From positions 1 through 29,792 of the IMG/VR virus record IMGVR_UViG_3300021368_001506: a stretch of DNA of 29,792 nt. One strand, written 5' to 3'. Source of the stretch: a virus. This document shows positions 6,003 through 29,792 of the stretch, piece by piece. Within the stretch, counting starts at the first letter, position 1. Each line of letters begins with the position of its first letter. The position numbers and the translations under genes were made by a program. Below the pieces are notes generated by a model. It made no database searches, had not been told where the DNA came from, and was given only the letters and a program-made list of their open reading frames with translations.

Positions 6003-6204
6003 CATTGGCGCTGATTACAAAAACGATGCCATGCATTATTCTTTAGGCCAAACGGTTTATGGAGGGCATGAGATAGCATATATAATCTTCGACAATACTG
6101 ATAATTCATATAACATTCACATAAAAAAAGACAACGAGGTTATGCCATGGAAGAAATTTAATTCTAACATGGCTATATCTGTTGAATATGATTTAGAATA
6201 CTAA
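5977..6204 (+). CDS. Small beta-rich protein of unknown function
   Basis: A 75-residue protein from the ATG at 5977. The same frame can be extended to a GTG at 5947, but that would increase the overlap with the coiled-coil gene from 26 to 56 bases, and the added lysine-rich residues look like out-of-frame coding, so I prefer 5977. The core ISIGADYKNDAMHYSLGQ, then alternating hydrophobic residues (IAYIIFDN, YNIHIKK, VMPWKKF, ISVEYDLEY), suggests a small beta sheet. No motif gives a function. Its stop overlaps the next start by one base (TAATG). Confidence 0.65.
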   Translation: MQSIIRKISIGADYKNDAMHYSLGQTVYGGHEIAYIIFDNTDNSYNIHIKKDNEVMPWKKFNSNMAISVEYDLEY

Positions 6205-6809: not shown

Positions 6810-7035
6810 TGAGTTAATTAAGGTAGCAGAAGAAAAGATCGTTGACTCAGGCGATGACATCTCGGCTGACAGACTTAAAAATGCTGCCGCTACTAAAAAA
6901 CTAGCAGTCTTCGATGCTTTTGAAATTCTTAACAGAATACAAGACGAAGAAGATATGCTAAATGACAAGCCTAAAGAAGAAAAGGAAGAAAAGTCCAAAT
7001 CATTTAAAGGCTTTGCTGAAGGGAGATCAAGATAA
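6754..7035 (+). CDS. Candidate terminase small subunit
   Basis: A 93-residue, mostly helical, charged protein with KIIQAGRKAVDELIKVAEEK as the first helix and LKNAAATKKLAVFDAFEILN as the second, then an acidic and basic tail ending in FKGFAEGRSR. It starts inside the preceding gene (56-base overlap in another frame), and its stop shares a base with the TerL start (TAATG). The position directly before TerL and the small helical make-up are the reasons for the call. There is no recognisable helix-turn-helix, so DNA-end recognition is inferred and not shown. It could be another packaging accessory. Confidence 0.45.
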   Translation: MSTKETKLKIIQAGRKAVDELIKVAEEKIVDSGDDISADRLKNAAATKKLAVFDAFEILNRIQDEEDMLNDKPKEEKEEKSKSFKGFAEGRSR

Positions 7036-9245
7036 TGTATCAGCAAACGTTATATAAAATTTTATCAGATCACATCAAGCCAAATGTAGTTAAAAGAAAT
7101 AATCGATACAGCAAATGGGCGTATGGTTATAACAAGGAGCATGATATGGTTATTATCAGTAAATCTGGTAAAATAGGAGAGATCTACGAGATACAAGGTC
7201 TTAAAATAGCTCTTCCAAAACAAGAAGAAGTTCGTAAGTTTGATTCTGACAAATGGGAATATACAGAATATCCTAAAGAATTAAAAAAAATAAAAACCGT
7301 TTTTGATTGGAGAGAATATCCTCAAGAGTTTCAAGAAAAATGGTATGATTACATAGACGATGAGTTTAAATATAGAGATGAAGGGTTTTGGTTTTATAAT
7401 AAGAGCGTTCCAACTTATATCACTGGCACTCATTACATGTACTTGCAGTGGTCCAAAATTGATGTTGGGAAGCCAGACTTTAGACAAGCAAACAGATTAT
7501 TCTTTATATTCTGGGAAGCTTGTAAGGCAGATGAAAGATGCTACGGCATGTGCTACCTTAAGAACAGACGTTCAGGATTTAGCTTTATGGCCTCAGGTGA
7601 GACCGTTAACCAAGCAACAATATCAAGTGACTCAAGATTTGGTATATTATCCAAATCAGGACCGGATGCTAAAAAAATGTTTACAGACAAGGTGGTACCA
7701 ATATCGGTTAACTACCCTTTCTTCTTTAAACCAATACAAGACGGTATGGACCGTCCGAAAACAGAATTAGCATATAGAGTTCCAGCCTCTAAATTTACTA
7801 GACGCAAACTAGACACAAACGAAAAAGTTGAAGACTTAGAAGGTCTTGATACAACGATCGACTGGAAAAACACGGGTGACAACTCCTATGATGGTGAGAA
7901 ACTAAAGTTATTAGTTCACGACGAAAGCGGTAAGTGGGAAAAGCCAAACAACATATTAAATAACTGGCGTGTAACTAAAACAACACTACGCCTTGGTTCT
8001 AGGATTATTGGTAAGTGTATGATGGGAAGTACGTCTAACGCATTGGATAAAGGTGGGGACAACTTCAAAAAACTATATCAAGATTCAGACGTTACTAAAC
8101 GAAACGCCAATGGACAGACTCGCTCGGGACTATATTCTTTGTTCATACCTATGGAATGGAATTACGAAGGATACATTGACGCTTATGGAGCACCTGTATT
8201 TGACACACCAGAAAAACCAGTTGATGCGCCAGATGGGACTAAAATAGATTTAGGCGTAATTGATTACTGGCAAAATGAAGTTGATGGTTTAAAAGAAGAC
8301 CAAGATGCTTTAAATGAATTTTACCGACAGTTTCCAAGAACAGAGCAGCACGCTTTTAGAGATGAAACAAAACAGTCGCTATTTAATCTTACAAAAATCT
8401 ATGAGCAAATAGATTACAACGAAGACGTAAATAACAAAACAATGGTCACTACTGGAAGCTTTCAGTGGGTGAACGGACAGAAAGACTCGATGGTAATTTT
8501 TGTGCCTCATAAGGACGGAAGATTCAATATAAGTTGGGTTCCACCTAAATATATGCAAAATCGAGTGATAGTAAAGAATGGGAGTAAACATCCTGGCAAC
8601 GAGCACTGTGGTGCTTTTGGGTGTGACCCATACGATATATCTGGTACAGTAGACGGTAGAGGATCTAATGGTTCGCTACACGGTCTTACTAAATTTTCAA
8701 TGGAAGACGTACCACCCAGTATGTTTTTCTTAGAATATATAGCCAGACCTCAAACAGCAGAAACATTTTTTGAAGACGTTTTAATGGCTTGCGTTTTTTA
8801 CGGTATGCCACTACTTGCTGAAAATAATAAACCTAGACTTCTATATCATTTTAAAAGAAGAGGTTACAGAGGTTTTGCAATGAATAGGCCAGATAAAGTT
8901 TGGAATAAACTTTCAACAACAGAAAGAGAAATAGGTGGAATACCTAACTCTAGCGAAGATATTAAGCAAGCTCATGCCGCTGCAATAGAATCTTATATAG
9001 AAAACTATGTTGGTTTTAGAGACCCAGGTTATGGTGACATGTATTTTCAAAGAACACTAGAAGACTGGGCAAAATTTAATATAAATAGTAGAACAAAGCA
9101 CGATGCTTCGATTAGTTCTGGTTTAGCTATAATGGCTTGTAATAAGCACTTGTATACGCCAGCAGCACCAATAAAAAGAGAAAATTATAATTTAGGATTT
9201 AAAAGATATGATAACACTGGTATCACGTCTAAAATAATAGAATAA
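7035..9245 (+). CDS. terL: Terminase large subunit (packaging ATPase and nuclease)
   Basis: A 736-residue DNA packaging motor. The ATPase part has a deviant Walker A, LKNRRSGFS (175-183), where the usual GKS/T lysine is replaced; Walker B LLVHDES (292-298) with Asp296-Glu297; and the coupling motif GSTSNA (331-336). The RNase H-like nuclease part starts near 520. GAFGCDPYD supplies Asp531, LLAENN supplies Glu596, and TKHDASISSG supplies Asp690, the three-acid pattern that cuts concatemeric DNA. The long N-terminal region (1-150) is rich in Tyr/Trp/Lys. The length is at the upper end of TerL but typical of large podoviruses. It is joined by TAATG to the gene before and directly abuts the portal. 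Confidence 0.93.
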   Translation: MYQQTLYKILSDHIKPNVVKRNNRYSKWAYGYNKEHDMVIISKSGKIGEIYEIQGLKIALPKQEEVRKFDSDKWEYTEYPKELKKIKTVFDWREYPQEFQEKWYDYIDDEFKYRDEGFWFYNKSVPTYITGTHYMYLQWSKIDVGKPDFRQANRLFFIFWEACKADERCYGMCYLKNRRSGFSFMASGETVNQATISSDSRFGILSKSGPDAKKMFTDKVVPISVNYPFFFKPIQDGMDRPKTELAYRVPASKFTRRKLDTNEKVEDLEGLDTTIDWKNTGDNSYDGEKLKLLVHDESGKWEKPNNILNNWRVTKTTLRLGSRIIGKCMMGSTSNALDKGGDNFKKLYQDSDVTKRNANGQTRSGLYSLFIPMEWNYEGYIDAYGAPVFDTPEKPVDAPDGTKIDLGVIDYWQNEVDGLKEDQDALNEFYRQFPRTEQHAFRDETKQSLFNLTKIYEQIDYNEDVNNKTMVTTGSFQWVNGQKDSMVIFVPHKDGRFNISWVPPKYMQNRVIVKNGSKHPGNEHCGAFGCDPYDISGTVDGRGSNGSLHGLTKFSMEDVPPSMFFLEYIARPQTAETFFEDVLMACVFYGMPLLAENNKPRLLYHFKRRGYRGFAMNRPDKVWNKLSTTEREIGGIPNSSEDIKQAHAAAIESYIENYVGFRDPGYGDMYFQRTLEDWAKFNINSRTKHDASISSGLAIMACNKHLYTPAAPIKRENYNLGFKRYDNTGITSKIIE

Positions 9246-11657
9246 ATGAACGTATATACAAATACAAATAGTTCTTTTCCTAGCCAAGTTGTTAGTGATG
9301 CGGAGAAAGCCAGCTTAGAATATGGCTTACAAGTGTCTAGGGCAATTGAGCAGGAATGGTTTGATCAGGGTAGAACTAATCAAAACAGATACCAAACTAA
9401 TTGGAATAATTTTCATCAATTAAGGCTATATGCTAGAGGAGAACAATCAGTTCAAAAATATAAAGATGAATTATCAATTAACGGTGATTTGTCTTATCTT
9501 AATTTAGACTGGAAACCAGTGCCGGTTATTTCTAAGTTTGTTGATATTGTTGTAAATGGTATATCACAAAAGACTTATGATATTAAAGCGTTTGCTCAAG
9601 ATCCTCAGTCTTTAAAGAAAAGAATAGACTATGCCGATAAAATTATTGGTGACATGTACGCTAAACCTGCAATTGAAAGGTTTCAAGAGTTATCTGGATT
9701 AAATATTAGTGAGTCTTCTTTATCGTTGGCGGAATTGCCAGCTAATGAAAATGAACTAGAGATACATATGCAGCTTAACTATAAGCAAGCTGTAGAAATT
9801 GCTGAGGAAGAAGCCATAAACAACGTTTTATCTAAAAACAAATATAATGACACTAGGCGTAGATTAAACTATGACTTAACTGTTCTTGGTATTGCTGCTG
9901 TTAAAACTAATTTCAATGTATCTAACGGTATTACTGTAGATTACGTAGATCCAGCATACATGGTTTATTCATATACAGAAGATCCTAATTTTGAAGATAT
10001 ATATTACGTTGGTGAAGTAAAAGCAATAACAATACCAGAGCTTAAAAAAGAGTTTCCATATATTTCAGAAGAAGAACTATATGAAATTCAACAAATGCCT
10101 GGTAATCGTCAATATATAACTGGTTGGGGTAATTATGATGAAAATACGGTTCAAGTTTTATACTTTGAATATAAGACATATATGAATCAAGTGTTTAAAA
10201 TTAAAAAGACTGATACTGGTCTTGAAAAAGCACTGGAAAAAACCGATGAATTTAATCCGCCACCAAATGATAATTTTGATAGAGTATCAAGAACTATAGA
10301 GGTTTTATACTCTGGCGCTAAAGTTATGGGTACCAATACAATGCTTAAGTGGGAACTTGCGGAAAACATGACAAGACCTTATGCAGATACTACTAAGGTT
10401 GTTATGAATTACAATATTTGCGCTCCTAGAATGTATAAAGGGCGTATTAATTCATTAGTTAGCAAAGTTACTGGTTTTGCTGATATGATTCAGTTAACAC
10501 ATTTAAAGCTGCAACAAGTGATGTCAAGAATTATTCCAGATGGTGTATTTTTAGACATGGACGGTTTAGCAGAAGTTGATCTTGGTAACGGAACAACATA
10601 CAATCCAGCGGAGGCTTTAAATATGTATTTCCAAACTGGTAGTATTGTCGGTAGGTCTTTAACACAAGATGGTGACTTAAATAGAGGCAAGGTTCCAGTT
10701 CAAGAACTAACATCGTCTTCTGGACAGGCTAAAATTGCTTCATTGATACAAACGTATCAATATTATTTACAAATGATTCGTGATGTGACGGGTCTTAACG
10801 AAGCAAGAGATGGTAGCAATCCTGACAAAGATGCTCTTCTTGGATTACAAAAAATGGCAGCTAATGCTTCTAATGTAGCAACGAGACATATTAATCAAGC
10901 AAGTAACTATTTGACAGTCAGGACTTGTGAAAATATTTCGTTAAAAATAAACGATGTTTTATCTTTTCCTTTAACTAAAAACGCATTAATGCAAAGTATA
11001 TCTGCTTTTAATGTAGAGGTGTTAAAAGAAATGGAGCAATTAAATATGTATGACTTTGGTTTATACCTTGAGTTAGAACCAGATGAAGAAGAAAAAGCGC
11101 AGTTAGAGCAAAACATACAAATAGCCCTTAAATCAGGCGGCATTGACCTAGATGATGCTATAGATATAAGACAAATAAAAAATCTTAAGCTTGCAAATGA
11201 ATTATTGAAGTTAAGAAAGCGTAAGAAACAAGAACAAGCGCAGCAAGCACAACTTGCTAATATTCAAGCTCAAGCTGAAGCAAATGCTAAGTCTTCTGAA
11301 AAAGCAGCTATGGCTGAGGTTCAAAAACAGCAAGCACTTACCGAGGTTAAAGTAAACGTTGAGCAAGCTAAATCTCAATTTGAGATACAACGAATGCAAA
11401 CTGAAGCTCAAATCAAAAAACAGTTAATGGCAGAAGAGTTTAATTATCAAATGCAATTAGCACAAGTAAGAGCAAATGCAGAGGCTGATAAAGAGCAAGA
11501 GATAGAAGATAGAAAAGACAAAAGAATTAGAATGCAAGGAACTCAGCAGAGTGAACTTATAGATCAAAGAAAAAACGATACACTACCTAAAGACTTTGAG
11601 TCCGCTGGTAATGATACATTAGGTGGTTTTAGCCTAGAAGCATTTTCGCCTAAATAG
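9246..11657 (+). CDS. Portal protein
   Basis: An 803-residue protein immediately after TerL, the classical portal position. The core has YDLTVLGIAAVKTNFNVSNG (about 205-224) and later a segment VTGLNEARDGSN (514-525) followed by a helix with KMAANASNVATRHINQASNY, resembling the stem/crown helices of large podovirus portals. Residues about 655-765 are a continuous Gln/Ala/Glu/Lys-rich helix (QAQQAQLANIQAQAEA and onward), as expected for an extended barrel or coiled coil inside the capsid. The portal is the dodecameric ring through which DNA enters and leaves. The start codon directly follows the TerL stop, and no Shine-Dalgarno sequence is visible. Confidence 0.87.
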   Translation: MNVYTNTNSSFPSQVVSDAEKASLEYGLQVSRAIEQEWFDQGRTNQNRYQTNWNNFHQLRLYARGEQSVQKYKDELSINGDLSYLNLDWKPVPVISKFVDIVVNGISQKTYDIKAFAQDPQSLKKRIDYADKIIGDMYAKPAIERFQELSGLNISESSLSLAELPANENELEIHMQLNYKQAVEIAEEEAINNVLSKNKYNDTRRRLNYDLTVLGIAAVKTNFNVSNGITVDYVDPAYMVYSYTEDPNFEDIYYVGEVKAITIPELKKEFPYISEEELYEIQQMPGNRQYITGWGNYDENTVQVLYFEYKTYMNQVFKIKKTDTGLEKALEKTDEFNPPPNDNFDRVSRTIEVLYSGAKVMGTNTMLKWELAENMTRPYADTTKVVMNYNICAPRMYKGRINSLVSKVTGFADMIQLTHLKLQQVMSRIIPDGVFLDMDGLAEVDLGNGTTYNPAEALNMYFQTGSIVGRSLTQDGDLNRGKVPVQELTSSSGQAKIASLIQTYQYYLQMIRDVTGLNEARDGSNPDKDALLGLQKMAANASNVATRHINQASNYLTVRTCENISLKINDVLSFPLTKNALMQSISAFNVEVLKEMEQLNMYDFGLYLELEPDEEEKAQLEQNIQIALKSGGIDLDDAIDIRQIKNLKLANELLKLRKRKKQEQAQQAQLANIQAQAEANAKSSEKAAMAEVQKQQALTEVKVNVEQAKSQFEIQRMQTEAQIKKQLMAEEFNYQMQLAQVRANAEADKEQEIEDRKDKRIRMQGTQQSELIDQRKNDTLPKDFESAGNDTLGGFSLEAFSPK

Positions 11658-11687
11658 AACAATTAATTAATTATATATTATTTTATC

Positions 11688-12884
11688 ATGTCAACACAAG
11701 TAAAACAAGAAGGGGATTTCAAGTTGAAAAAACCTAAAGCTAAACAATTGGGTAAAGTTGATGAGGTTGTTAAAGTAGATTTAAGCAAACCTAAACAACA
11801 AGAAGAAGAACCAATTAAAGTAGATTTAACAAAAAAAGAAGAAGATGCCGTTCAAGAGCAAAGCACAAATGACAGCAATGTTACTGTCGAAGGATCCGAA
11901 AACAGTAGCAACAGCGAAGAAGTGGTTGAAGAAGTACGGCCCACCGAAGAGGAAAAAGAAGTAGTATTACAAGAAATTACAGAAGAAGAAGTTAAAGAAG
12001 AAGTTAAAGCAACTAAACAAGAACTTAAAGAAGCTGTAGAAGAAACAAAAGAAACAGGTAAGCCACTTCCAGAAAACATTGAAAAGCTTGTTGCTTTTAT
12101 GGAGGAAACAGGTGGTAACATAGAAGACTATGTTCGGTTAAATGCTGATTATTCTAAAGTAGATCAAAATACTTTGCTTAGAGAATATTATAAACAAAGC
12201 AAACCATACTTAAATCAAGAAGAAGTTACTTTATTAATGGAAGATAACTTTAAGTATGATGAAGAAATAGATGATGAGCGAGACATCAGAAGAAAAAAAC
12301 TCGCATTTAAAGAAGAAGTTGCAAAAGCCCAAAACTTTTTAGAGCAAACAAAGAGTAAATATTACGACGAAATCAAGTTGAGACCCGGCGTAACTCAAGA
12401 GCAAAAAAAAGCAATGGATTTTTTCAACCGATATAACGAAGAGCAAAATACACGTGCTCAGCAACACGAGAACTTTAAAAACCAAACTAAAAACTTTTTT
12501 GCAAACGATTTCAAAGGTTTTGATTTCAATTTAGGAGAAAAAAAGTTTAGATATGGTATTCAAAATCCTTCTCAAATTGCCGATACTCAATCAGACATTA
12601 ACAATGTAGTTGGGAAGTTCCTAGACGATAAAGGTAATGTTACAGACACAAGTGGGTATCATAAAGCTATGTATGCTGCTATGAATGCTGATAAATTAGC
12701 AAGTCATTTTTATGAACAAGGAAAAGCTGACGCAACAAAAAATATAGTTGCATCGTCTAAAAATCCTAGTTCTGGAGAACCAAGAAAAGCTCCAGAAAAT
12801 GTTTATATAAACGGACTTAAAGTTAAAGCAATTAGTGGCATGGATTCTTCAAAACTTAAAATTAAAACAAAGAAATTTAACTAA
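11688..12884 (+). CDS. Putative capsid scaffolding protein
   Basis: A 398-residue, very acidic protein between portal and major capsid protein, the usual place for a scaffold. The first 150 residues are Glu/Lys/Val-rich and largely disordered or coiled-coil. KVDL occurs twice there (KVDLSKPK, then KVDLTKKE), and the 14-base unit TTAAAGTAGATTTA is repeated at 11770 and 11815. Residues about 145-225 are helical (YVRLNADYSKVDQNTLLREY and neighbours). The C-terminal third is rich in Lys and Asn. The composition suits an internal scaffold that is removed after assembly. No protease domain is seen in it. The leader is A/T-rich. Sequence alone does not exclude another internal head protein. Confidence 0.65.
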   Translation: MSTQVKQEGDFKLKKPKAKQLGKVDEVVKVDLSKPKQQEEEPIKVDLTKKEEDAVQEQSTNDSNVTVEGSENSSNSEEVVEEVRPTEEEKEVVLQEITEEEVKEEVKATKQELKEAVEETKETGKPLPENIEKLVAFMEETGGNIEDYVRLNADYSKVDQNTLLREYYKQSKPYLNQEEVTLLMEDNFKYDEEIDDERDIRRKKLAFKEEVAKAQNFLEQTKSKYYDEIKLRPGVTQEQKKAMDFFNRYNEEQNTRAQQHENFKNQTKNFFANDFKGFDFNLGEKKFRYGIQNPSQIADTQSDINNVVGKFLDDKGNVTDTSGYHKAMYAAMNADKLASHFYEQGKADATKNIVASSKNPSSGEPRKAPENVYINGLKVKAISGMDSSKLKIKTKKFN

Positions 12885-12900
12885 TTAAAACTTTAAAATT

Positions 12901-14337
12901 ATGGCTGTAGTAAGTCCTGCGTTTGGGTCAATTGTCCCATCACAGAAACAGCAATTGCTAAGTACAAACTACTTAAACTTTGCTGACGGGAGTGGAAATG
13001 ATTTCGCTCAACAATATTTACCTGAAATTTACGAACAAGAAGTAGAACGTTATGGAAACCGTACTCTTTCTGGATTCTTGCGTATGGTTGGCGCTGAGAT
13101 GCCAATGACTTCTGATCAAGTTGTTTGGTCAGAACAAAATCGTTTACACATTGCTTATGATGGTTTAACAGCTACTGCTGCTACAACTATCCGCATTGTG
13201 CAAAGCGCTTCTGTACAAGGTGTTATTTCTCAAAACCAAACTATTGTAGTTATGAACACTGCAAATGGTGATGAAGTAAAATGTCTTGTAACAGGTGTTA
13301 CCGGTACTTCTGGTACTTCTGGTAACTACGATCTTACTGTACTACCTTACACTCAAGCTGATTTAGCTGGTGGTGGTGCTGGTGAGGTTACTCTTTATGA
13401 TGCCGTTACTCCGATTACAACTTTGAAAATCTTTGTATACGGTTCTGAATTTGCTAAAGGTACAACTGATGCAAGTCTTATGTCTGTTGTTCCTCAGTTC
13501 ACTCAATACAACAATAAGCCAATCATTATCAAAGAACGTTACGAAGTAAGTGGTTCTGATATGGCTCAAATTGGTTGGGTTGAAGTTGCTACTGAAGAAG
13601 GTGCCTCAGGATTCTTGTGGTACTTGAAAGCAGAATCTGAAACTCGTTTACGATTTGAAGATTACTTAGAAATGGCCGTTGTAGAAGGTGAGCAAGTTTC
13701 TGCTACATCTGCTATCACTGGTGTTACTGGTACTGAAGGTCTTTTCGCCGCTATTCGTGGCCGTGGAAACGTTCTTGCCAACTTCACCGCTGCTGCTGGT
13801 TTAGCTGAATTTGATTCTATCCTTAAGAATCTTGATACTCAAGGAGCTATTGAAGAAAACATGCTTTTCTTGAATCGTGCTACTTCTTTGGATTTCGATG
13901 ATATGCTAGCTGATCTTTCTGACGGTGCTAATGGTGGTACTGCTTATGGATTATTTGAAAACTCTGCTGAAATGGCCTTGAATCTTGGATTCAGTGGTTT
14001 CCGTAGAGGTTCTTATGATTTCTATAAGACTGACTGGAAATACTTGAACGATGCCTCAACTCGTGGCGGTGTAGCCGTTAACGCTATTGATGGTGTTCTT
14101 GTTCCTGCTGGTACATCAACTGTTTACGATCAAATTCTTGGAACTAATATCCGTCGTCCTTTCCTACACACTCGTTACCGTGCTTCACAAGGTGATGATC
14201 GTCGTATGAAAAACTGGGTAACTGGTTCTGCTGGTGGTGCTTACACCTCTAATCTTGATGCTATGGAAGTACACTTCCTATCTGAAAGATGTTTAGTGGT
14301 TCAAGGTGCTAACAACTTTGTATTGTTCACAGCTTAA
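12901..14337 (+). CDS. Major capsid protein
   Basis: A 478-residue protein following portal and scaffold. The N-terminal arm includes FAQQYLPEIYEQEVERYGNR, then an alternating beta pattern, a Gly/Thr-rich loop (GTSGTSG near 137) and a long folded C-terminal part ending in ERCLVVQGANNFVLFTA. The size and position fit an HK97-fold capsid protein, the most abundant virion protein. Codon use differs from its neighbours: of 21 Arg codons I counted 17 CGT and 2 AGA, whereas TerL, portal and tail genes mostly use AGA/AGG. This is the signature of very high expression. A strong terminator lies just downstream. The start ATG follows an A/T-rich leader. Confidence 0.9.
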   Translation: MAVVSPAFGSIVPSQKQQLLSTNYLNFADGSGNDFAQQYLPEIYEQEVERYGNRTLSGFLRMVGAEMPMTSDQVVWSEQNRLHIAYDGLTATAATTIRIVQSASVQGVISQNQTIVVMNTANGDEVKCLVTGVTGTSGTSGNYDLTVLPYTQADLAGGGAGEVTLYDAVTPITTLKIFVYGSEFAKGTTDASLMSVVPQFTQYNNKPIIIKERYEVSGSDMAQIGWVEVATEEGASGFLWYLKAESETRLRFEDYLEMAVVEGEQVSATSAITGVTGTEGLFAAIRGRGNVLANFTAAAGLAEFDSILKNLDTQGAIEENMLFLNRATSLDFDDMLADLSDGANGGTAYGLFENSAEMALNLGFSGFRRGSYDFYKTDWKYLNDASTRGGVAVNAIDGVLVPAGTSTVYDQILGTNIRRPFLHTRYRASQGDDRRMKNWVTGSAGGAYTSNLDAMEVHFLSERCLVVQGANNFVLFTA

Positions 14338-17340: not shown

Positions 17341-20300
17341 ATGGCTGAAATCAAAAACACTTTTATAAAGTCTAAGATGAACAAAGATCTTGATGATCGT
17401 ATTGTTCCTCCTGGTGAATATCGAGATGCTTTAAATATACAAATAAGTAGATCAGAAGGTGACGATGTTGGTGCTTTAGAAACTGTACTAGGTAACGAGT
17501 TGTTTTTTGGTGAAGAAACATATAACACTTGTATTGGTGCTTATGCTGATGTACAGAATCAAGTTGTTTATTATTTTGTCACAGACTATATAGACGCTTC
17601 TGCTGATGGATTATCAAATAGAGCGCCAGATGATGCTTATTGTGCTATAATTAAATATGATGCTGTAACTTTTTTCAAAACAGTTTTAGTTAAAGGTAGT
17701 TTTTTAAATTTTTCTGCAAGAAGCCAAATTACAGGCGTTAATATAATTGAAGATCTTTTATTCTGGACTGATAACAGAAATCAACCAAGAAAAATAAATG
17801 TTAGAAGAGCAGCAGAGCTTCCTGCTGAACAGCCAGAAAGCGGTAGAGGTCCAACCTCTCTTATTCCAACACCATATTACACTTCAGAAGATCAAATATC
17901 TGTAGCAAAATATTATCCCCATTCTCCTATATTACTTTTAAATTTATACGATACCGTGGCTGGTAATGTTGCTGATGACTCAACAATGACTAATCCCACT
18001 GAGCAATATTATCCGGGTGGCACAAATCCAAAGCCAGATTATGATTCTAGTTGGCCTGGTGATCCAGAATATTTATCTGATAAATTTATACGCTTAAGTT
18101 ATAGATTTAAATTTGATGATAATGAGTATTCGCTAATGGCGCCTTTTACGCAACCATGTTTTATACCAAAACAATTTGGATATTTTTTAGGTGGTGATAA
18201 TCTAAAAACATACGAAAGTACTATTGTTGATTTTTTCGAAAACAATGTTACTCAAATTATAGCCAATATATCTTTCGAGTCTTTAAGACCAGATTTAGAT
18301 TTACATATAAAAGAGGTAGATATATTATATAAAGAATCTGATGCTTTACAAGTTAAAGTTATAGAAACAATACCTATAAATACTATAGTTAATAGAATAC
18401 AAGAAAATTATACTAGAACCAGTGGTAATGGTTATGTTTATGATTACAAGTATATTTCTACAAAACCATATAAATCTTTACCAGAAGATCAAATAACAAG
18501 AGTATACGACCAAGTTCCAACAAGAGCTTTAGCTCAAGAGGTTTCTGGCAATAGAGTTATATATGGTAATTTTACCACGACACAATCACAACCTAAAACT
18601 TTAGATTATAGTGTTTCTTTTCAAAACAAATTAAGCTTAGCAAACGGTGGAACTAATCAAATAGAATATCCAAACCATACAGTAAAACAGAATAGAAACT
18701 ACCAGTTGGGCGTTATTTTAGCTGATAGATATGGTAGACAATCAAGTGTTATACTTTCCTCAAGAGATACTAACGTAACTAGTGGTGGCGCTAGCTATGG
18801 TGGTTCTACAATATATGTACCATATAAGCCAAATAGTGGTGCCACGCCGATGAACTGGCCTGGCTACGCGCTGCAAATGTTAATCAATGAGCCAATACCA
18901 AATCTTGATCAAACAGATGTTCAAAACTATCCGGGACTGTATAAAGATTACAACAAAGGCGTTGATAGAGTGACAGTTACTACTCCTGGCTCAACATATT
19001 CTACAGGAAACAATATAGCTACTACTGGTGGTACTGGAAGCGGGTTAACGGTAGATATAATTAGTACTGGAGGTTTAGGTGCTGTATCAGAAGCATTTGT
19101 TAATAATCCTGGAACTGGATATGTCACTGGTGATGTTGTAACAATAACTGGAGGTGACGGCGCAGCTGAATTAACAGTAACTGTTCTACCAGCAAATCCA
19201 TTAGGGTGGTATTCTTACAAAATAGTTGTTAGACAAACCGAGCAAGATTATTATAACTGTTATCTTCCTGGTATATTAAATGGTTTTCCAGATAGTTATG
19301 TTGAAGGCCCTACTTTTGGACTTAATAGATTCGCAAATATTGTTTTAATAAACGATAATATAAATAAAATACCAAGAGATTTAGAAGAGGTTGGTCCTGA
19401 TCAAAAACAATACAGGAGTGCTGTTAGATTATTTGGTAGAGTTGCACCACTTAACCAAACTGGCCCATCATATAATAATTATAACCAACAATATTATCCT
19501 AGTACAATTGCTGATTCTGTTACTTCTATATCAACTTTAGAAGATGTAAACTATAATGGAACTACTTTAGGAACAATTCAAACAGGTGGTACTTCAAGTT
19601 ACACATTAGATTATGAAGAGTTTTTCCAATATACTACTAATCCGCTAATAGCAAAACTAAGTACTACAGACCCTATAGGAAAGCAAAATATAACTAATAC
19701 TGGCGCTCCTTCTTATTCATATACGCTGGCTGTTTATGAAACAGATCCAGTAGAATCTTTATTAGATATTTACTGGGAAACAACGTCGACTGGTATTATT
19801 AGTGAGTTAAACTCTTTAATACAAGAAGGCGGTTATGAAGGTGCTGTTGATTTTAATGGGTTTCAATTTATATTGGCTGAAAATAGCTTACCAGGAACTA
19901 ATTGTTTTCAAGGGCCTATTCAAGTTTTAAATGGCTTTGGTGCTGTAATTGACGATGATATTGAATATGAGCTAGTTAGTGTAACAAATAAACTTGGAAT
20001 TAATGTTTCAGAAAAATTTGTTTTAGTTGCATCTGGAGCTGGTGGCCCTGCTGATCCAAAAAGCTTTAATATAAGGACTACAGCTATTTCAAGTGGTGAT
20101 ACTAGTGATTCGTTTTTCTATTATGGCCCTGTTGTAGCATTGAACACTTTTATATTTACAATAAAATGTACATACACAAATCCATCTACAACAGATGTTA
20201 CTGTAAGTAATTTAGTTATAAATGATCAAGAGCTTATAAATATATTTCCAGAAATATACACACTACCTGGTTTTCCAGTTCCACCAGTAAACTGTAGTAT

Positions 20301-21135
20301 ACTAGGAAATGCAATAACCACATGTAATCCTATACCAATCCCTTCTTCATCTATACAAGCTCCAGTTGTAACAGATACAGTTATATATAATTTTGGGGTT
20401 TCAAATGGATCTCTTTGTGGTGGTGATAACTTTTCAGATAACTTGACCGTTGAGTTTCCTGGTATGGATACAGATGTTTTTGAAGCGGGGTTAATTAATC
20501 CTAACGATCCATCAAGATATGAAATAAAAGTAAAGGCTGGAGCCACGTCGGATATTAATCCTAAAGATGTTGTAATAAAAGTTACCGACGCTGGTGGTTT
20601 AATTCGTTACTGTGGTACTCCGCCTAATTTACCTAAAATCACGTACACTGTAATACCAGAATTAAACATAAACTATGATTTAGATGGTAATGGTGAACCA
20701 ATTTGTGATGTTGGTGCTGAAGACGGATCTGGAGCTTGGGACAATAACACTAAAATTGGTAGATTAAGATATAGTATATTATGGCAAGGACTTGACAATG
20801 GTCAAACTTACGATGTTGAATTTGTAATGGGGCCTAATACTGGGATTTGGCCTACTCAAGCTGTACAAATAAACGGAGTGGCACCAGGCGCAACAGAAAC
20901 TGTAGTTGCAACAACGTCAACATGCCCTGATCCAATAACAACTTTTACTGGTGATGCTACTGGTTTGAAAAGACAATATTTCGATGTTTGGTGGGAGGGT
21001 ATTACCGCTAATCTTAATTTTACCATAAAAATGTCTGTTGGTGGAGCTGTGATTAAAACAGTACCTGCAAACTGGCGCGCTAATTTAACTATATTAGGAG
21101 TAACAAGTTGTGTTGGTGGTCAATGCTCCCCTTAA
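17341..21135 (+). CDS. Large tail protein (stabilisation/muzzle-like)
   Basis: A 1264-residue protein. The N-terminus IKNTFIKSKMNKDLDDRIVP, followed by GEYRDALNIQIS and EGDDVGALETVLGN, is a pattern I know from tail stabilisation or muzzle proteins of podoviruses. The N-terminal half is likely a beta-propeller or beta-rich ring. Residues 544-617 hold two copies of a 25-30 residue glycine-rich unit (PGSTYSTGNNIATTGGTGSG and PGTGYVTGDVVTITGGDG). The region after 760 is a chain of Ig-like or cadherin-like beta modules, and the protein ends with Cys-containing SCVGGQCSP. The modules may project outward and touch the host surface. Exact fold and homology need a profile search. Confidence 0.72.
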   Translation: MAEIKNTFIKSKMNKDLDDRIVPPGEYRDALNIQISRSEGDDVGALETVLGNELFFGEETYNTCIGAYADVQNQVVYYFVTDYIDASADGLSNRAPDDAYCAIIKYDAVTFFKTVLVKGSFLNFSARSQITGVNIIEDLLFWTDNRNQPRKINVRRAAELPAEQPESGRGPTSLIPTPYYTSEDQISVAKYYPHSPILLLNLYDTVAGNVADDSTMTNPTEQYYPGGTNPKPDYDSSWPGDPEYLSDKFIRLSYRFKFDDNEYSLMAPFTQPCFIPKQFGYFLGGDNLKTYESTIVDFFENNVTQIIANISFESLRPDLDLHIKEVDILYKESDALQVKVIETIPINTIVNRIQENYTRTSGNGYVYDYKYISTKPYKSLPEDQITRVYDQVPTRALAQEVSGNRVIYGNFTTTQSQPKTLDYSVSFQNKLSLANGGTNQIEYPNHTVKQNRNYQLGVILADRYGRQSSVILSSRDTNVTSGGASYGGSTIYVPYKPNSGATPMNWPGYALQMLINEPIPNLDQTDVQNYPGLYKDYNKGVDRVTVTTPGSTYSTGNNIATTGGTGSGLTVDIISTGGLGAVSEAFVNNPGTGYVTGDVVTITGGDGAAELTVTVLPANPLGWYSYKIVVRQTEQDYYNCYLPGILNGFPDSYVEGPTFGLNRFANIVLINDNINKIPRDLEEVGPDQKQYRSAVRLFGRVAPLNQTGPSYNNYNQQYYPSTIADSVTSISTLEDVNYNGTTLGTIQTGGTSSYTLDYEEFFQYTTNPLIAKLSTTDPIGKQNITNTGAPSYSYTLAVYETDPVESLLDIYWETTSTGIISELNSLIQEGGYEGAVDFNGFQFILAENSLPGTNCFQGPIQVLNGFGAVIDDDIEYELVSVTNKLGINVSEKFVLVASGAGGPADPKSFNIRTTAISSGDTSDSFFYYGPVVALNTFIFTIKCTYTNPSTTDVTVSNLVINDQELINIFPEIYTLPGFPVPPVNCSILGNAITTCNPIPIPSSSIQAPVVTDTVIYNFGVSNGSLCGGDNFSDNLTVEFPGMDTDVFEAGLINPNDPSRYEIKVKAGATSDINPKDVVIKVTDAGGLIRYCGTPPNLPKITYTVIPELNINYDLDGNGEPICDVGAEDGSGAWDNNTKIGRLRYSILWQGLDNGQTYDVEFVMGPNTGIWPTQAVQINGVAPGATETVVATTSTCPDPITTFTGDATGLKRQYFDVWWEGITANLNFTIKMSVGGAVIKTVPANWRANLTILGVTSCVGGQCSP

Positions 21136-21170: not shown

Positions 21171-22862
21171 ATGGCTACTGTAATAGAAGTAAAATATTTC
21201 AATTCGTTTTGGCTAAAAACAGTTAATGATGTTAGTGCTTCACCCGTGTTTCCAAATGGTTATCCATATAACACTGGTAGTAAAGCGTTACCTTTATTAG
21301 GTGGTGGTACACTTCCAAGCTTTCCTGGAACAGGTGCCGACGCAACAGCTACTGGTTTAAATATAAATTGGTTTATAGAAGAATCAAGAATTAGAGGTGG
21401 TTATAATAACACTCAAATAGATCTTGGTGTAAGAGCATATATTGTTGAAGATGTCACCGAGCAACAAAACAGAATAAATTCATTGATATATTCTGGTGTA
21501 TATAACTCTAGAACAGGTATAAATAATACTAATCAGTTTTCAGTTGGTAAAGATATAGTTAAAAGCTTAAATCCTGCAAATGGATCAATACAAAAGCTAT
21601 TTGCTGAAAACACAAATATGACTATATTCCAAGAGTCAAAAGTTAGTTCAGCATTAATTAACAAAGACGCTATTTATTCAGCTGAAGGTACACCTGTACA
21701 AACAACATCTAACTTAGTTATTGGGCAAATACAGCCTTATTTAGGTGAATATGGTATTTCAACAAATCCAGAGTCATTTGCTTACTATGGTTATCAAAAA
21801 TACTTCACAGATAAAGACCGAGGAGTTGTTTTAAGGTTGTCTAGAGACGGTATTACTGAAATATCGCAATATGGTATGATGGATTATTTTAGAGACAATC
21901 TAGCCACTTTAAATGATAACTATCTATGGAGCGTAACTTGTGGCCCTACAACAGCGTCAACTGTTGGCAATAGTAAATCAATAGATGTCAATGGTGCAGA
22001 TTTAAATACTGTGTTGGTTGGTATGTCTGTTATTGTTGATGGTGTTTTTACAGCTTTTATAACTAAAGTAACACCTAGTCCAGTAGGTGGTGTAGTACTT
22101 ATTGATAGAGCAGCTACAATTACTGCTGGTGAAAACGTATTGTTTCAATCAACCGCTCCTTCAAGAGCTTTAGGTGGTTACGATATACACAATAAAAACT
22201 ATGTATTATCTCTACAAACAGGAGCTCAGTACACAGATGACACATTGACTACGCCAACAAACTACTCAACAGCAGCGTTTGATGAGCTTATAAACGGTTG
22301 GGTTGGCTTCTTTAGCTATAAACCTTCACAAATGTTTAACATAAAGAGTGATTTTTATTCTTTACAGTTTGCTAATATTTGGAAACATTACTCTTCTTTA
22401 GTAAATGTTTGCAGTTTTTATGGAACAGAAACATCTAGTAATATTACATTTGTATTTAATAAAGATTCTTCTATAAATAAAGTTTTCCAAACTGTTAACT
22501 ACGAAGGAGATAACGGTTGGTTAGTAGAAAGCTTTATATCTGATCCAACTGGTTATGATTTTTCAAGTAATTCTTGGAGAACATATAATGATCAAACTCA
22601 AGGAGTTTTAAGTTATGTAGACGGTACTTATACGGACGGAGGTATTACTTATCACTCAGGTTTTAATAGAAAAGAAAATAAATATTACGCAAATCTAATT
22701 AATACCTCTACGGCTCAGCCTGGTGAAGTTGTTTTTGGAGCGGATATTTCAGGAATAAAAGGAAGATTTGCTACTGTTAAGTTTGCAGTAGACTCTTCAA
22801 CAGACCCAGGAGGCACAAAAGAACTATGGTCTGTAGGAACAAAAATAAACTATATAAGATAA
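21171..22862 (+). CDS. Tail beta-structure protein
   Basis: A 563-residue protein with Gly/Asn/Ser/Tyr-rich beta repeats and no signal peptide. A conserved-looking stretch SRIRGGYNNTQIDLGVRAYI (about 71-90) is followed by helical QQNRINSLIYSGVYNSRTGI, then a region with SYKPSQMFNIKSDFYSLQ (about 384-401). The overall make-up resembles the second half of P22 gp10/T7 gp12-type tail tube proteins, so I propose a nozzle or lower tail part acting with the 1264-residue product. It follows that gene by 35 bp. There are few Lys/Glu helices and no catalytic motif. A receptor-binding role is possible but no sugar-cleaving motif is seen. Confidence 0.55.
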   Translation: MATVIEVKYFNSFWLKTVNDVSASPVFPNGYPYNTGSKALPLLGGGTLPSFPGTGADATATGLNINWFIEESRIRGGYNNTQIDLGVRAYIVEDVTEQQNRINSLIYSGVYNSRTGINNTNQFSVGKDIVKSLNPANGSIQKLFAENTNMTIFQESKVSSALINKDAIYSAEGTPVQTTSNLVIGQIQPYLGEYGISTNPESFAYYGYQKYFTDKDRGVVLRLSRDGITEISQYGMMDYFRDNLATLNDNYLWSVTCGPTTASTVGNSKSIDVNGADLNTVLVGMSVIVDGVFTAFITKVTPSPVGGVVLIDRAATITAGENVLFQSTAPSRALGGYDIHNKNYVLSLQTGAQYTDDTLTTPTNYSTAAFDELINGWVGFFSYKPSQMFNIKSDFYSLQFANIWKHYSSLVNVCSFYGTETSSNITFVFNKDSSINKVFQTVNYEGDNGWLVESFISDPTGYDFSSNSWRTYNDQTQGVLSYVDGTYTDGGITYHSGFNRKENKYYANLINTSTAQPGEVVFGADISGIKGRFATVKFAVDSSTDPGGTKELWSVGTKINYIR

Positions 22863-25343: not shown

Positions 25344-28300
25344 ATGCCTAAATATAAGTATAAAGGAGCCGACTTTACATTACAAGAAGTTGTTGAAGCT
25401 GCTGAAAAAAGAAATCTAACACTAGATAATTATATTAAACAGTTTGAAATTGAGGTTATTGAAGATGATTCTTTTCAAACAGGTCCTGTAGTGGAGACTG
25501 CGGTTGCGGGGCCAATGACCGAAGCTCAACAACAAGCAGTCGATACGGTATCTGTATTGGAAGATACTTCTTTGGAATCACCAGAAGTTGATGGTAAGCT
25601 AGAATTTCCTTATGAAGCTGATTATGCCGATCAGCTAAAGGCTTATGAAAAAAAACACAATGATATTTTATCTGCTTCAAATGGTTATGAATATTTACAA
25701 GACAAACCATTAGAAGAAAGAGAGTTTATTGCATCTAAATTTGCTATAGCGCCTACTAGAACAATTCGTATTTTAAATGAAGAAACACAAAAATACGAAG
25801 AAAAAGCTAGACCAGATGCTTTAGAAGCTGTAAAAAAAGAAATGCCTACCAACTTTGCAGACTATAATACCCCACAAGAATTTAACGTAGCTGTAAATCA
25901 AACTATAGCAAAGTCTTTAGAAAATGATCCACTGATTAATTTCGAGATAAACAAATCAATAGAGTTAAATAAACCTAAAATTGAAGCTAAAAAAAGAGAA
26001 CTTGAGTCAAGTTATGACTTAAGTAATCCAGAAAACGTAGATAAAGCAAACGAAGAATTAAATAGTTTTATAAACGAAACAGTATTTCAACCTGTAATTG
26101 ATAGTGACTTATACGAGAAAACGGTAAAAGAATTAGACTTAGTTACAAGCGAAGCAGCTTCTGAAGCTAATAATCAATATGCTAATTATTATAGAAAAGA
26201 TCAAAGATCAAAAGATTCTTTTTTAAGCGCTTTAGATGCTATTAGAATTTCTAGTATAAAAAATAATGCTTCAGCAGTTTCTTATGTTGTTGATTTTATA
26301 GAAGGTGTTACAAGAGGCGGTATTGGTTTGGGTGTTGGAATTAAAGAAGCTGAGATTTCTGGAGAGCAAGGAAACTTAGTTAAAAACTCAAGTGAATTAG
26401 ATAAAATTGAAAAAGATTTAGAAGCAGGAATTATATCTCTTGAAGATGAGGCTACTTACGGTGACATTCAATTTACAAAAGGAGGCAATATTGTAGGTCA
26501 ACAAACCGGTACTATTCAAGATAAAATAAATTACTTAGAATCTCAACTTGAAAAAGATAGAAAAGATATTATAGGTAAAATTGAATCTAAAGTTGAAAAA
26601 GAAAAAAGATTAGACTTATTTCAACAAGCTGATTTAGATGATGGTATAGACTTGAGAGATATAATAATGACCGTTGGAGAAGCTGTTCCAAGTCTTACAG
26701 CAATGTCAGTTGGAACTGCAACTAGAAACCCATATTTAACTGGATTAGGTTTTGCAACTATTTTTAGTTCAGAATATGGAAATAATTATTACCAAGCCTT
26801 GGTTCAAGGTTTACAAAACGATGGAATCGAAACTACCCCTGAAAATATAGCTAAAGCAATAGAAGAGGATAAATATGCTAATAAAGCTACAGCCGCAGCA
26901 ACAGCCGCTATATCAACCGGCTTAGAAAGACTAGGTGCTTTAAAAATTGTAAAAAATACAATGAAAGCATTAAGACTAGGTGATGATTTAGCTTCTGGAC
27001 TTGGATCTTTATATAAAGGAGAAATAAAAAAGTTTGGTATAGGTTTAGTTGGAGCGGGTAAAAGACAAGCTAAAAGTGGTCTTGGTGAATTCTTAACAGA
27101 AGGAGCTCAAACGGGAATAAGTCAAGTATCAACTGGGTTACAACTTGGCGGTATTCAAGATACTTTTAAATATTTAGAAGCAAAACCAATAGTTACTAGC
27201 GGAAAAGCCGGTGCAATAGTTGGTACTGTTTTACCGTTTGGATCTTCAGTTTATACGCAAAGCACAGTAGAACTTAGAAATGCCGCAAGAGATGTTGCTA
27301 CTAAGTTTGATATGGGTAAGTTTGGAAAAAACTTTAAAGAAGCAAACCAGTTTTTTAAAGGCGCTGAGCAAAATTTAAAAAATAAATTTGAAACAGGAGA
27401 GTTAACAGAAGAACAATACCAACAAGAAGTCGATAATTTAAGTTCTTTTAGAAACACTGGATTAAAAATACCTAAAGAGTTTTCAACAAACTCAAAGCAA
27501 AAGATTTTTGATTTAATGGTTGAAAGAGATAATCTATCTAGACAAATAGAAGATTTAGATCCTCAAACAACTATAGAAGAACAAGATAGAATAAAAGCAA
27601 TAAATACTGAAATAGCAGAAATAGCCGCAAAAGAAAAAGTGTCTAAAGGACTTAAAGGAGTTACTGCTAGTATTGCCAAATTAGAAGGTAGACCTTTAGA
27701 AGCGTTTGAAAATACTGAGGAATTTAACAAAGCTATTGATCAAGATCCAGATATTCCACAAAAACAAAAAGAAGAAGCTAAAGAAGCGGAAGGTATTTTT
27801 GTTGGAAAAGGTAAAATATACATTGACAAACAAAAAGCTGCTAAAGTTGGAAATATTGGAGTTGGAGCTCATGAGTTTTTACACCCAATACTAAATGCTT
27901 TAGTTGGTGATGTAAACAAACAAGAAAAAATAGTTAATGATTTTGAAAAATTATTAAGTAAGAGTCAGCAAGCTAAAATGAATAGACTTTTAGAAGTTTA
28001 TAAAGATAAAGACACAGGTGTTTTAGATCCTAAAAAAAGAGCATCTGAATATTTAACTGTTTTTTCTAATGCCATAATTGACGGTGAAATAAAATACAAT
28101 GAGAATATATTTAAAAGAATAGGTGAATATTTACTTAGACTTTTTGGTAGAGAGGGTGGTTTTAAAAACGCAAATTTTGAAAGCGCTGAAGGTGTTTATA
28201 GTTTCTTAAAAGAATACAATAGAACTATACAAAAAGAAACTGGTTTAAGCGAAAGAGCTTTAGAGTTAATTAAAAAGCGTGAAGCTGAAACTGGGGTTAA

Positions 28301-29792
28301 AGTAGCTGAGGTAGATATATTAAATATACCACAGTTTTCAAAAACAGATTTAAAATCTGAAATAGATACTTTTGTTCAGGAAGATGGAGCAAAAAAATAT
28401 GATACAAAAGCAGAGTTTCAAATGTCTGATGACTTTGCAAATGCGTATACCAAAATCACTGACAGCAACTTATTAGATGGCAGTGTACTTAGTATAATTA
28501 ATAGAGACGATAACTTATCAGGATTATCAGATGATGTTAAAGCAGAGATAATTGAAAAGACTAAAGAAAATGTTTCGATGCGTTTTCTACAGAACTTTGA
28601 TCCTGCTAAAAACGAAAGTTTATTTGGCTGGATGCTTGGTAAAAACGGAGCACTTGGCTTTGCGGTATTAGATGTTAAAAAAGATTACGCTAAAACAGCA
28701 AGAGAAACATCGTTAGACATTCCAGCTGGTGAGCGTGGTTTTGTCGGTGATATTGCTGTAGAACCTACAACTGAAGAGGCTATAGACGAAGCAATTAAAG
28801 TAACTAGAGCCGAGGCTAAGTTAATAGATCCGGTTGATATTATTACAGATAAAGCTACTAGAGATAAATATAGAGAAACTGTACAGTCTAAGATAGAAAA
28901 CTTGACAGATAAACAACTGTCTTTCAAGAACTTAAAAGATTTAGCACCTGAGATTACAGCTGAGGTATTTGGCGTACCAGTTAAAAAAGTTGTTGATCCA
29001 ACTGCAAACCTTAGCAAAGGCGATGCCACTAATGCTCAAATGTTTATCACTAAAAACGCTGATAAACTTATAAAGCTATTACCTGAAGGTGCTGTTTTAG
29101 AGGCTGCTACGGAAAAACTTATAGGCACATCAACTGGTGTTCCTAAAAAACTACTTGATGCTTTTTATGATAAACAAGAGCGTATAACTAAAAAAGCTGG
29201 TTTATTTCCATACAAGAAAAAACCAAATATTACAAAAGAAGATTTCTTAGCAGCGTTTGGAATTGTTGAAGGTAAAAAAGCGCCTGACTTTAGTCCAAGA
29301 TCAGCTGAAGCTCAAGCAACAAAAGGTCTTATGTCTTTGTTTGGCAGACTTATGACCAATACAACGGTCAGAAAAGAATTAGCTAAAACACCTGGAACTG
29401 AAGCTGTTGTGCAAGATATTGCCGCGGGTAAAGCCCCACTTCAGTTTAGCCGTAAAGCGAGAACCGCTTTGGATCTTTCTAGTAATGCTATAAACTTTAA
29501 AGATAAGCAACAATTAACTGATGGTCGCAATGCTTTAATAAAATTAGCAAAAGCTTTAGGGCCAGAAAAAACAATGAAATATTTACTTCCTACTGTACAA
29601 TCACAATGGGGTTTGTTAGGTGGTAAATTTGTTGTTGATGATTCTAAAGGATTTACAAAAGTAACAAAAGAAGATGGTAAGTTTAGAACAAATCAATTTT
29701 TAACATTAGGAAGAAAAGATTTTTTTGATTTAATAGATGGCACGGCATTTGATTCTGCTAAATATGAAAAAGGCAAAACATTTGCAACTATT
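25344..29792 (+). CDS. Very large internal virion/ejection protein with HExxH motif (3' end outside window)
   Basis: The frame is open from the ATG at 25344 to the last base, 1483 codons without a stop. I followed the frame by residues at several points. Candidate parts: an N-terminal helical module (YKGADFTLQEVVEAAEKRNL, 6-25); acidic helices to about 310; three hydrophobic, Gly/Ala-rich stretches near 312-334, 441-475 and 623-637; a metalloprotease motif AHEFLH with His843, Glu844 and His847; a helical patch near 1068-1117 (ENVSMRFLQNFDPAKNESLF) that faintly recalls sigma-region-2-like helices; and QFS(K/R) sites at 997 and 1367. The order suits the largest ejection protein of a podovirus (T7 gp16 position) with enzymatic cargo. 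Which substrate the protease part cuts is unknown. Confidence 0.75.
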   Translation, partial: MPKYKYKGADFTLQEVVEAAEKRNLTLDNYIKQFEIEVIEDDSFQTGPVVETAVAGPMTEAQQQAVDTVSVLEDTSLESPEVDGKLEFPYEADYADQLKAYEKKHNDILSASNGYEYLQDKPLEEREFIASKFAIAPTRTIRILNEETQKYEEKARPDALEAVKKEMPTNFADYNTPQEFNVAVNQTIAKSLENDPLINFEINKSIELNKPKIEAKKRELESSYDLSNPENVDKANEELNSFINETVFQPVIDSDLYEKTVKELDLVTSEAASEANNQYANYYRKDQRSKDSFLSALDAIRISSIKNNASAVSYVVDFIEGVTRGGIGLGVGIKEAEISGEQGNLVKNSSELDKIEKDLEAGIISLEDEATYGDIQFTKGGNIVGQQTGTIQDKINYLESQLEKDRKDIIGKIESKVEKEKRLDLFQQADLDDGIDLRDIIMTVGEAVPSLTAMSVGTATRNPYLTGLGFATIFSSEYGNNYYQALVQGLQNDGIETTPENIAKAIEEDKYANKATAAATAAISTGLERLGALKIVKNTMKALRLGDDLASGLGSLYKGEIKKFGIGLVGAGKRQAKSGLGEFLTEGAQTGISQVSTGLQLGGIQDTFKYLEAKPIVTSGKAGAIVGTVLPFGSSVYTQSTVELRNAARDVATKFDMGKFGKNFKEANQFFKGAEQNLKNKFETGELTEEQYQQEVDNLSSFRNTGLKIPKEFSTNSKQKIFDLMVERDNLSRQIEDLDPQTTIEEQDRIKAINTEIAEIAAKEKVSKGLKGVTASIAKLEGRPLEAFENTEEFNKAIDQDPDIPQKQKEEAKEAEGIFVGKGKIYIDKQKAAKVGNIGVGAHEFLHPILNALVGDVNKQEKIVNDFEKLLSKSQQAKMNRLLEVYKDKDTGVLDPKKRASEYLTVFSNAIIDGEIKYNENIFKRIGEYLLRLFGREGGFKNANFESAEGVYSFLKEYNRTIQKETGLSERALELIKKREAETGVKVAEVDILNIPQFSKTDLKSEIDTFVQEDGAKKYDTKAEFQMSDDFANAYTKITDSNLLDGSVLSIINRDDNLSGLSDDVKAEIIEKTKENVSMRFLQNFDPAKNESLFGWMLGKNGALGFAVLDVKKDYAKTARETSLDIPAGERGFVGDIAVEPTTEEAIDEAIKVTRAEAKLIDPVDIITDKATRDKYRETVQSKIENLTDKQLSFKNLKDLAPEITAEVFGVPVKKVVDPTANLSKGDATNAQMFITKNADKLIKLLPEGAVLEAATEKLIGTSTGVPKKLLDAFYDKQERITKKAGLFPYKKKPNITKEDFLAAFGIVEGKKAPDFSPRSAEAQATKGLMSLFGRLMTNTTVRKELAKTPGTEAVVQDIAAGKAPLQFSRKARTALDLSSNAINFKDKQQLTDGRNALIKLAKALGPEKTMKYLLPTVQSQWGLLGGKFVVDDSKGFTKVTKEDGKFRTNQFLTLGRKDFFDLIDGTAFDSAKYEKGKTFATI

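Follow-up and report, generated by a model that had tools for sequence, protein, structure and literature searches.

What does the giant last gene of a phage virion block encode, and might its product be cut into smaller parts? This question is raised by the virus record IMGVR_UViG_3300021368_001506 (29,792 bases, analysed as a whole and referred to here as the window), which breaks off inside such an open reading frame (ORF). The original prediction described it as very large and unfinished, placed at the ejectosome position, with an embedded HExxH metalloprotease motif, hydrophobic patches and QFS(K/R) sites as possible domain borders. As set out below, the marking of module borders by QFS(K/R) is strongly supported by sequence comparison, the HExxH motif appears to belong to a real zincin-like metallopeptidase (MPTase) domain, and the module between the two QFS sites of the window may hold a fold resembling region 2 of sigma factors.

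Relatives of the giant ORF

With the full window protein as query, a single relative was obtained from viral contigs (L002, 2125 amino acids (aa)), and this full-length homologue led to two more (L005, 2201 aa; L006, 2733 aa). A search with an alignment of the zincin domain returned 126 relatives among 499 candidate stretches, of which the best 80 were kept; their ORFs and that of the window form the first set of 81 giants. All 81 contain HExxH, a count that is not independent, since the search patterns favoured this motif. For motif counts the first set was reduced to 42 giants, non-redundant at 60% and without the window. The second set was built irrespective of the protease, by searching with aligned C-terminal domains of giants; at least 591 relatives were found among 599 candidate stretches and 80 were kept. 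The ORFs of 71 of these were 5'-complete, 62 with and 9 without HExxH. Nine loci with 5'-open ORFs and 13 contigs already included were dropped before counting, which was done on 34 non-redundant giants. The C-terminal domain itself (QQSSRPD...ILAFANTP), encoded by those 591 or more viral-contig stretches, delineates a large, nearly undescribed phage group.

The QFS(K/R) border motif

The strongest signal came from the QFS(K/R) sites. In the 42 giants of the first set the motif occurs 38 times, against 1.50 expected and a maximum of 6 in 200 shuffles. A single occurrence lies N-terminal of HExxH (27,491 residues), while 37 are located C-terminal of it (66,090 residues). The motif occurs once (1.65 expected) among the other 267 ORFs at these loci, which show no enrichment. 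In the window protein, two or more QFS(K/R) arose in only 1 of 2000 shuffles. The shuffles and the 267 other ORFs rule out an effect of composition or a general trait of the proteins of these phages. The sole site outside the giants sits in L062, in the ORF directly following an apparently split giant (7022-13941, ORFs of 1585 and 707 aa), with QFSK about 56 residues into the second part.

Alignment ends between giants fall within five residues of FS(K/R) in 241 of 3878 cases, compared to 50.7 at random (standard deviation 11.4, maximum 102 of 500). At the same distance, an alignment end is found for 36 of the 37 C-side QFS(K/R) sites and 67 of the 112 FS(K/R) sites of the first set, the baseline being 20.9% of C-side residues, while 15 other short patterns reached 4.8 to 30.6%. 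Replication in the second set was weaker for QFS(K/R), which was counted only six times (1.5 expected, shuffle maximum 5 of 200) and lay at breakpoints in two of the six. The wider forms replicated, with 79 FS(K/R) against 34 expected and 28 FS(K/R)(T/S/N) against 6.4; alignment ends were close to 40 of 68 FS(K/R) and 29 of 40 FS(K/R)(S/T/N/A), with a baseline of 18.1%. Position -2 of the motif favours I, L or V. At position -1, Q stands in 39 of the 99 C-side sites from the first set (window included with the 42 giants) and K in 22 of the 62 sites from the second, and the residue after K/R is preferentially T, S or N in the first and S, N or A in the second. Because of the K at position -1 and the low QFS(K/R) count in the second set, Q appears to be one lineage's version of a broader motif, hydrophobic-(Q/K)-F-S-(K/R)-(T/S/N). 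That the motif is a conserved residue of one domain was rejected, as its flanks form 37 clusters in several contexts, single linkage having merged many.

In the window, the module searched as residues 998-1366 is 98% identical to L002, with divergent or unrelated flanks. Each 20-residue bin from 981 to 1340 shows 95-100% identity; the left edge is blunter, with 88% nucleotide identity already at 961-980. Both QFS sites lie where model confidence (predicted local distance difference test, pLDDT) drops below or near 50. For residues 1367-1483 no relative was found among viral contigs. No description of the border motif was found in the literature searched, in the parts of the sources considered.

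The zincin-like metallopeptidase domain

The HEFLH motif noted at residues 843-847 was confirmed; an HExxH arose in 2 of 2000 shuffles of the His-poor window protein. Across 94 aligned domains only H843, E844, H847 and E902 are invariant. The members were chosen for HExxH, while E902 played no part in the selection; it was conserved in 43 of 43 sequences of a separate alignment. AlphaFold2 applied to the 94-domain alignment gave a model with a pLDDT of 86.0 and a predicted template modelling score of 0.81, whose secondary-structure string comprises strands 13-16, 45-48 and 52-56 and helices 19-28, 68-82 and 124-140. HExxH is carried by helix 68-82 and E902, the candidate third zinc ligand, by the later helix 124-140, behind a three-stranded sheet. 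The HExxH helix followed by a Glu on a later conserved helix is the arrangement that defines these MPTases, and the topology is that described for polyvalent-protein MPTases, as given in the part of PMC5512222 concerned with them. When scanned singly against Pfam, 17 of the 94 members matched Peptidase_M78 (E 0.1 or better, best 1.3e-7), six SprT-like and five DUF6782; the window's own domain matched none of the three. The HEFLH motif thus appears, from alignment and model, to belong to a real zincin domain, as originally proposed, and the contrary case of a non-catalytic helix lacking a third zinc ligand was not what alignment and model displayed. A chance HExxH was rejected on the shuffles, the four invariant residues and the zincin-like model.

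Five of the nine giants without HExxH (L122, L133, L134, L138 and L167) retain a degenerate zincin domain, with EELFH in the alignments read (L134 and L167), and represent a natural pseudoprotease lineage.

Further searches added little. Pfam and PHROGs scans of the whole window protein led nowhere, as did a PDB sequence search with profiles of the zincin domain and of the 998-1366 module. Nothing useful was obtained by tblastn against phage records with the whole window protein, the L002 protein or the module, and a BFVD search gave borderline matches to giant phage proteins only (best E 3.7e-3).

A sigma-region-2-like module

The module between QFSK997 and QFSR1367 was not part of the original prediction. 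A model of residues 765-1395 had a pLDDT of 63.7 overall and about 45-77 over residues 1027-1124, for which VIA gave sigma region 2 matches: SigH (Z 8.3, root-mean-square deviation (rmsd) 3.2, 81 residues), alphaproteobacterial RpoE (Z 7.9) and the T4 gp55 complex (7.2). Among the matches listed, 48 of 50 were titled RNA polymerase or sigma (the others being 5b0l and T7 gp15-gp16), sigma chains being very redundant in the PDB. Independently, in hhalign, five E. coli sigma factors aligned to the module profile with Prob 75.3 (P 2.5e-5), sigma region 2 being paired with window residues 1031-1105. The reversed profile gave 0.1, and among 38 slices taken along 20 giants only the two that overlap the module scored (28.5 and 24.7), the next reaching 1.0. 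The module profile finds 107 of 152 giants, a figure that is partly circular because some of them built the profile. The rest of this model, though more confident (pLDDT about 78-92 in 1165-1244), had no listed fold match, which is not evidence of a new fold. Taken from model and profile comparison, a sigma-region-2-like fold in this module is supported but not proven.

Location in the virion and comparison with known systems

The protein at the same position in phi18:3, gp123, has tandem mass spectrometry (MS/MS) support according to its record, and that of elemoB is annotated as structural. Presence of the giant ORF product in the virion is supported but not proven, and its ejection would follow from position and relatives. 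Giant genes at this position in related phages encode 3694 aa (elemoB), 3859 aa (ctfjg026), 1691 aa (phi38:1) and 1935 aa (phi18:3), mostly annotated as structural. The ctfjg026 homologue (L007:741-12320) is annotated, probably wrongly, as a reticulocyte binding/rhoptry protein and has two HEFGH motifs 885 residues apart.

In that Elemovirus, Callevirus phi38:1 and Baltivirus phi18:3 all have a giant last virion protein, they resemble the window; the zincin domain is also present in elemoB (E 4e-7 to L005), whereas phi38:1 and phi18:3 differ in having neither HExxH nor an excess of the motif. In elemoB and ctfjg026 the motif signal is weaker, at 5 sites (2.5 expected). To call the combination in the window unusual was too strong, as a 2017 study had already described zincin-like MPTases within giant polyvalent proteins that phages inject, together with a proposal of self-processing (Iyer et al., PMC5512222, in the sections treating them). 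Those proteins share with the window protein the giant multidomain build, an embedded MPTase with HExxH and a later-helix Glu, and module shuffling; unlike here, no cleavage motif is given in the part considered and no sigma-like module appears in the main text, where 'sigma' occurs 0 times. Several unrelated domains in one phage polypeptide, the mark of polyvalent proteins, are present in the window protein as zincin and sigma-like module, and among 20 giants Zeta_toxin and AAA matches were found in two and LPD18 in one. The virion RNA polymerase (vRNAP) of N4, gp50, is likewise giant, ejected, active in transcription and equipped with an HExxH domain, but constitutes a whole single-chain RNA polymerase, whereas the window protein has a sigma-region-2-like module only (PMC12633501 and PMC5512222, relevant parts). 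The cargo proteins of phiCrAss001 are also large, packed with DNA and ejected, and the window has a muzzle-domain gene; in contrast, PMC10172136 mentions neither a protease nor a peptidase (both terms occur 0 times), and the window terminase and portal group with podoviruses of Flavobacteriia. The relevant part of PMC7824862 places phage sigma factors in jumbo phages and not in injected polyproteins, and the phrase 'virion-associated sigma factor' was not found in the literature searched.

Proposed mechanism and alternatives

For the giant protein we favour, with about an even chance of being correct, the reading in which a polyvalent cargo protein is cut by its zincin at the border motifs and modules, one of them sigma-like, are freed. 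Such a giant cargo protein of modular build, made by a marine Bacteroidota podovirus, would be synthesized late and packed into the virion, from which it would be ejected along with the DNA. Its N-terminal part, probably related to ejection and packing, would be followed by the zincin-type metallopeptidase and by modules on flexible linkers bearing the border motif. Cutting there by the zincin, either while the virion is assembled or once the chain is injected, would release the modules, of which the first, sigma-region-2-like one may bind host RNA polymerase for early transcription. One-sided placement, restriction to the giant protein and position at borders fit protease sites. More tentatively, and in our view rather doubtfully, the injected chain might be cut by its own zincin at a linear code whose second letter varies by lineage (Q in the window, K elsewhere), and a freed virion-borne sigma-like factor might capture the host RNA polymerase before phage gene expression.

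A number of observations weigh against self-cleavage and the release of a sigma-like module. Cleavage, its timing and the embedded zincin as the cutter are steps that we infer. N4 vRNAP, with its HExxH domain, is packaged unprocessed (PMC5512222, section on this protein), and the MS-detected phi18:3 gp123 is devoid of HExxH. Foldseek of the zincin model against the PDB gave nothing significant (all E >1), and the best VIA match, a zincin, reached only Z 4.4 (rmsd 5.5, 146 aligned); zincins of the toxin, collagenase and other kinds score Z 2.3-4.4 among unrelated helical proteins and may reflect a common arrangement only. The sigma matches have low sequence identity and a Z near chance level for helical bundles, and T7 gp15-gp16 also aligns to residues 1027-1124 (Z 5.5). 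As the module matched no Pfam sigma model including Sigma70_r2, no helix-turn-helix of sigma region 4 was found (hhalign of the 1150-1366 profile, Prob 1.4) and Foldseek of the module model against the PDB gave no significant E-values, it is called sigma-region-2-like and not filed as a sigma factor. Furthermore, four giants with a degenerate zincin (10,752 residues) have 13 xFSK sites outside conserved blocks against 4.0 expected; the motif therefore needs no intact catalytic site, which speaks against simple self-cleavage. Per thousand residues, motif density is 1.21 in these four and 1.11 and 0.85 in the active-zincin sets, while three giants without any zincin fold (2 sites, 2.2 expected; 0.32) and phi38:1 with phi18:3 (0.28) are at background, numbers being small and the proteins related in this comparison, from which L133 (close to L134) and the 574-aa L156 were left out. 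The motif thus seems to follow the fold of the zincin more closely than the state of its catalytic residues, leaving room for cutting in trans or docking without cutting.

Cutting of the border sites in trans by a phage maturation protease or a host enzyme, with the zincin otherwise employed or active in some lineages only, would account for the xFSK sites retained beside degenerate zincins. The head proteins of jumbo phage SPN3US are reportedly cut by a separate prohead protease. Since the 267 other ORFs show no enrichment, however, a general virion protease would need specificity for one protein, and the lack of excess in the three giants without the fold is likewise unfavourable, so that we regard this explanation as unlikely. 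A minority possibility is also that nothing is cut: xFS(K/R) would act as a linker or for docking between modules (in packing, tail threading or chaperone binding), and recombination would swap modules there. This would agree with sites that mark breakpoints within low-confidence linkers, with their retention by degenerate zincins and with the GroEL and GroES encoded by the phage, but not with placement almost exclusively C-terminal of the protease (37 versus 1) or with a motif sequence too specific for a generic linker. If the zincin instead served as an effector, cleaving a host protein once injected and playing no part in its own chain, an alternative proposed for polyvalent-protein MPTases (PMC5512222, same part), the repeated border motif would be left unexplained; we consider this improbable. 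That HEFLH is a chance non-catalytic helix would be compatible with the missing Pfam peptidase match of the window alone and the lack of a significant Foldseek match in the PDB; the restriction of invariance to four catalytic-type residues in 94 domains, the zincin-like topology and the Peptidase_M78 matches of members make it very improbable indeed.

Features of the window and gene neighbourhood

The features discussed are compiled in Table 1. The 3' end of the giant ORF was not recovered, as its last 42 bases were without exact match. The hydrophobic patches of the original prediction are not transmembrane-like: the best 19-residue Kyte-Doolittle mean is 1.22, the usual threshold being about 1.6, and the patches (about 315-635) are rich in small residues. 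The giants begin with a short domain, present in two copies in some (window 25344-25598; N-termini of L017, L018 and L019), after which an acidic Ser/Asp-rich stretch follows (e.g. DTSLESPEVD), possibly a packaging tag. A block DFDDTL...LTARP...FADD in the consensus of 20 giants (e.g. L022 and L049), just before an FSK site, had no Pfam hit and is presumably HAD-phosphatase-like.

Table 1. Position of features in the window, with residue numbers (res) of the giant protein
Feature	Position	Strand	Basis or remark
Terminase large subunit and portal	7035..11657	+	context; places the phage
Muzzle-like tail gene, upstream of giant ORF	21171..22862	+	crassvirus muzzle C-terminal domain PF25729 (E 2.7e-11); phrog_14478 (E 2.4e-43)
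Giant virion-block ORF	25344..29792	+	ATG start, 1483 codons, open at contig end
N-terminal segment, res 1-85	25344..25598	+	also in 9 of 80 further giants examined
N-terminal variable region, res 86-674	25599..27365	+	weak hydrophobic/small-residue segments; unrelated sequence instead in nearest relative L002
Zincin-like MPTase domain, res 773-981	27660..28286	+	94-sequence alignment, AlphaFold2 model, Pfam matches of members
HEFLH motif, res 843-847	27870..27884	+	sequence; alignment
E902, candidate third zinc ligand	28047..28049	+	on helix of model residues 124-140; invariant in alignment
QFSK border site, res 997-1000	28332..28343	+	within stretch mostly of pLDDT <50
Module between two QFS sites, searched as res 998-1366	28335..29441	+	present in 24 of 81 giants (window included)
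Sigma-factor region-2-like helical part, res 1027-1124	28422..28715	+	VIA, hhalign
QFSR border site, res 1367-1370	29442..29453	+	similarity to L002/L005 stops 4-7 residues beyond; pLDDT <50
Start of next module, cut by contig end	29454..29792	+	no relatives found

The giant ORF is the last gene of a virion block that includes terminase and portal. Together with the muzzle-domain gene upstream, this makes ejectosome position a fair description. The two genes in between had no family match worth naming in Pfam or PHROGs. PHROG 14478 (1474 positions) spans two adjacent genes, its start matching 17341-21135 and its later part the muzzle-like gene, which suggests a fused form elsewhere. The window also encodes a GroEL-like (695-2251, phrog_5725, E 1e-130) and a GroES-like protein (6204-6809, phrog_13932, E 1.5e-23), and both genes are present in Elemovirus as well.

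The window terminase matched 87 of 50,697 phage records, comprising 68 Flavobacterium (including Elemovirus), 15 Cellulophaga, two Tenacibaculum and one Maribacter phage and ctfjg026 (63%); the portal gave 87 matches with an identical breakdown of names. Thus, no terminase match fell to the Crassvirales group, from which the muzzle domain is known, and the window phage appears by these genes to be a podovirus related to Elemovirus, Pervagoviridae and Pachyviridae. The giants' C-terminal domain was also found on ten contigs from bacterial or archaeal bins, labelled Flavobacteriaceae (two), Crocinitomicaceae (one), Sphingobacteriales (one), Bacteroidetes (two) and other (four), binning being unreliable. 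From the terminase and portal relatives and these labels, a marine Bacteroidota host is likely.

Implications

Self-processing of polyvalent proteins was proposed in 2017 with no cutting sequence given in the part of PMC5512222 considered. With the border motif, candidate sites can now be named in many uncultured phages, which makes the idea testable by mass spectrometry and with recombinant protein, and it offers a simple means to split giant proteins into modules for annotation. If the sigma-like reading is true, the module would represent a further virion-borne route to phage transcription, relying neither on a packaged RNA polymerase nor on host sigma alone.

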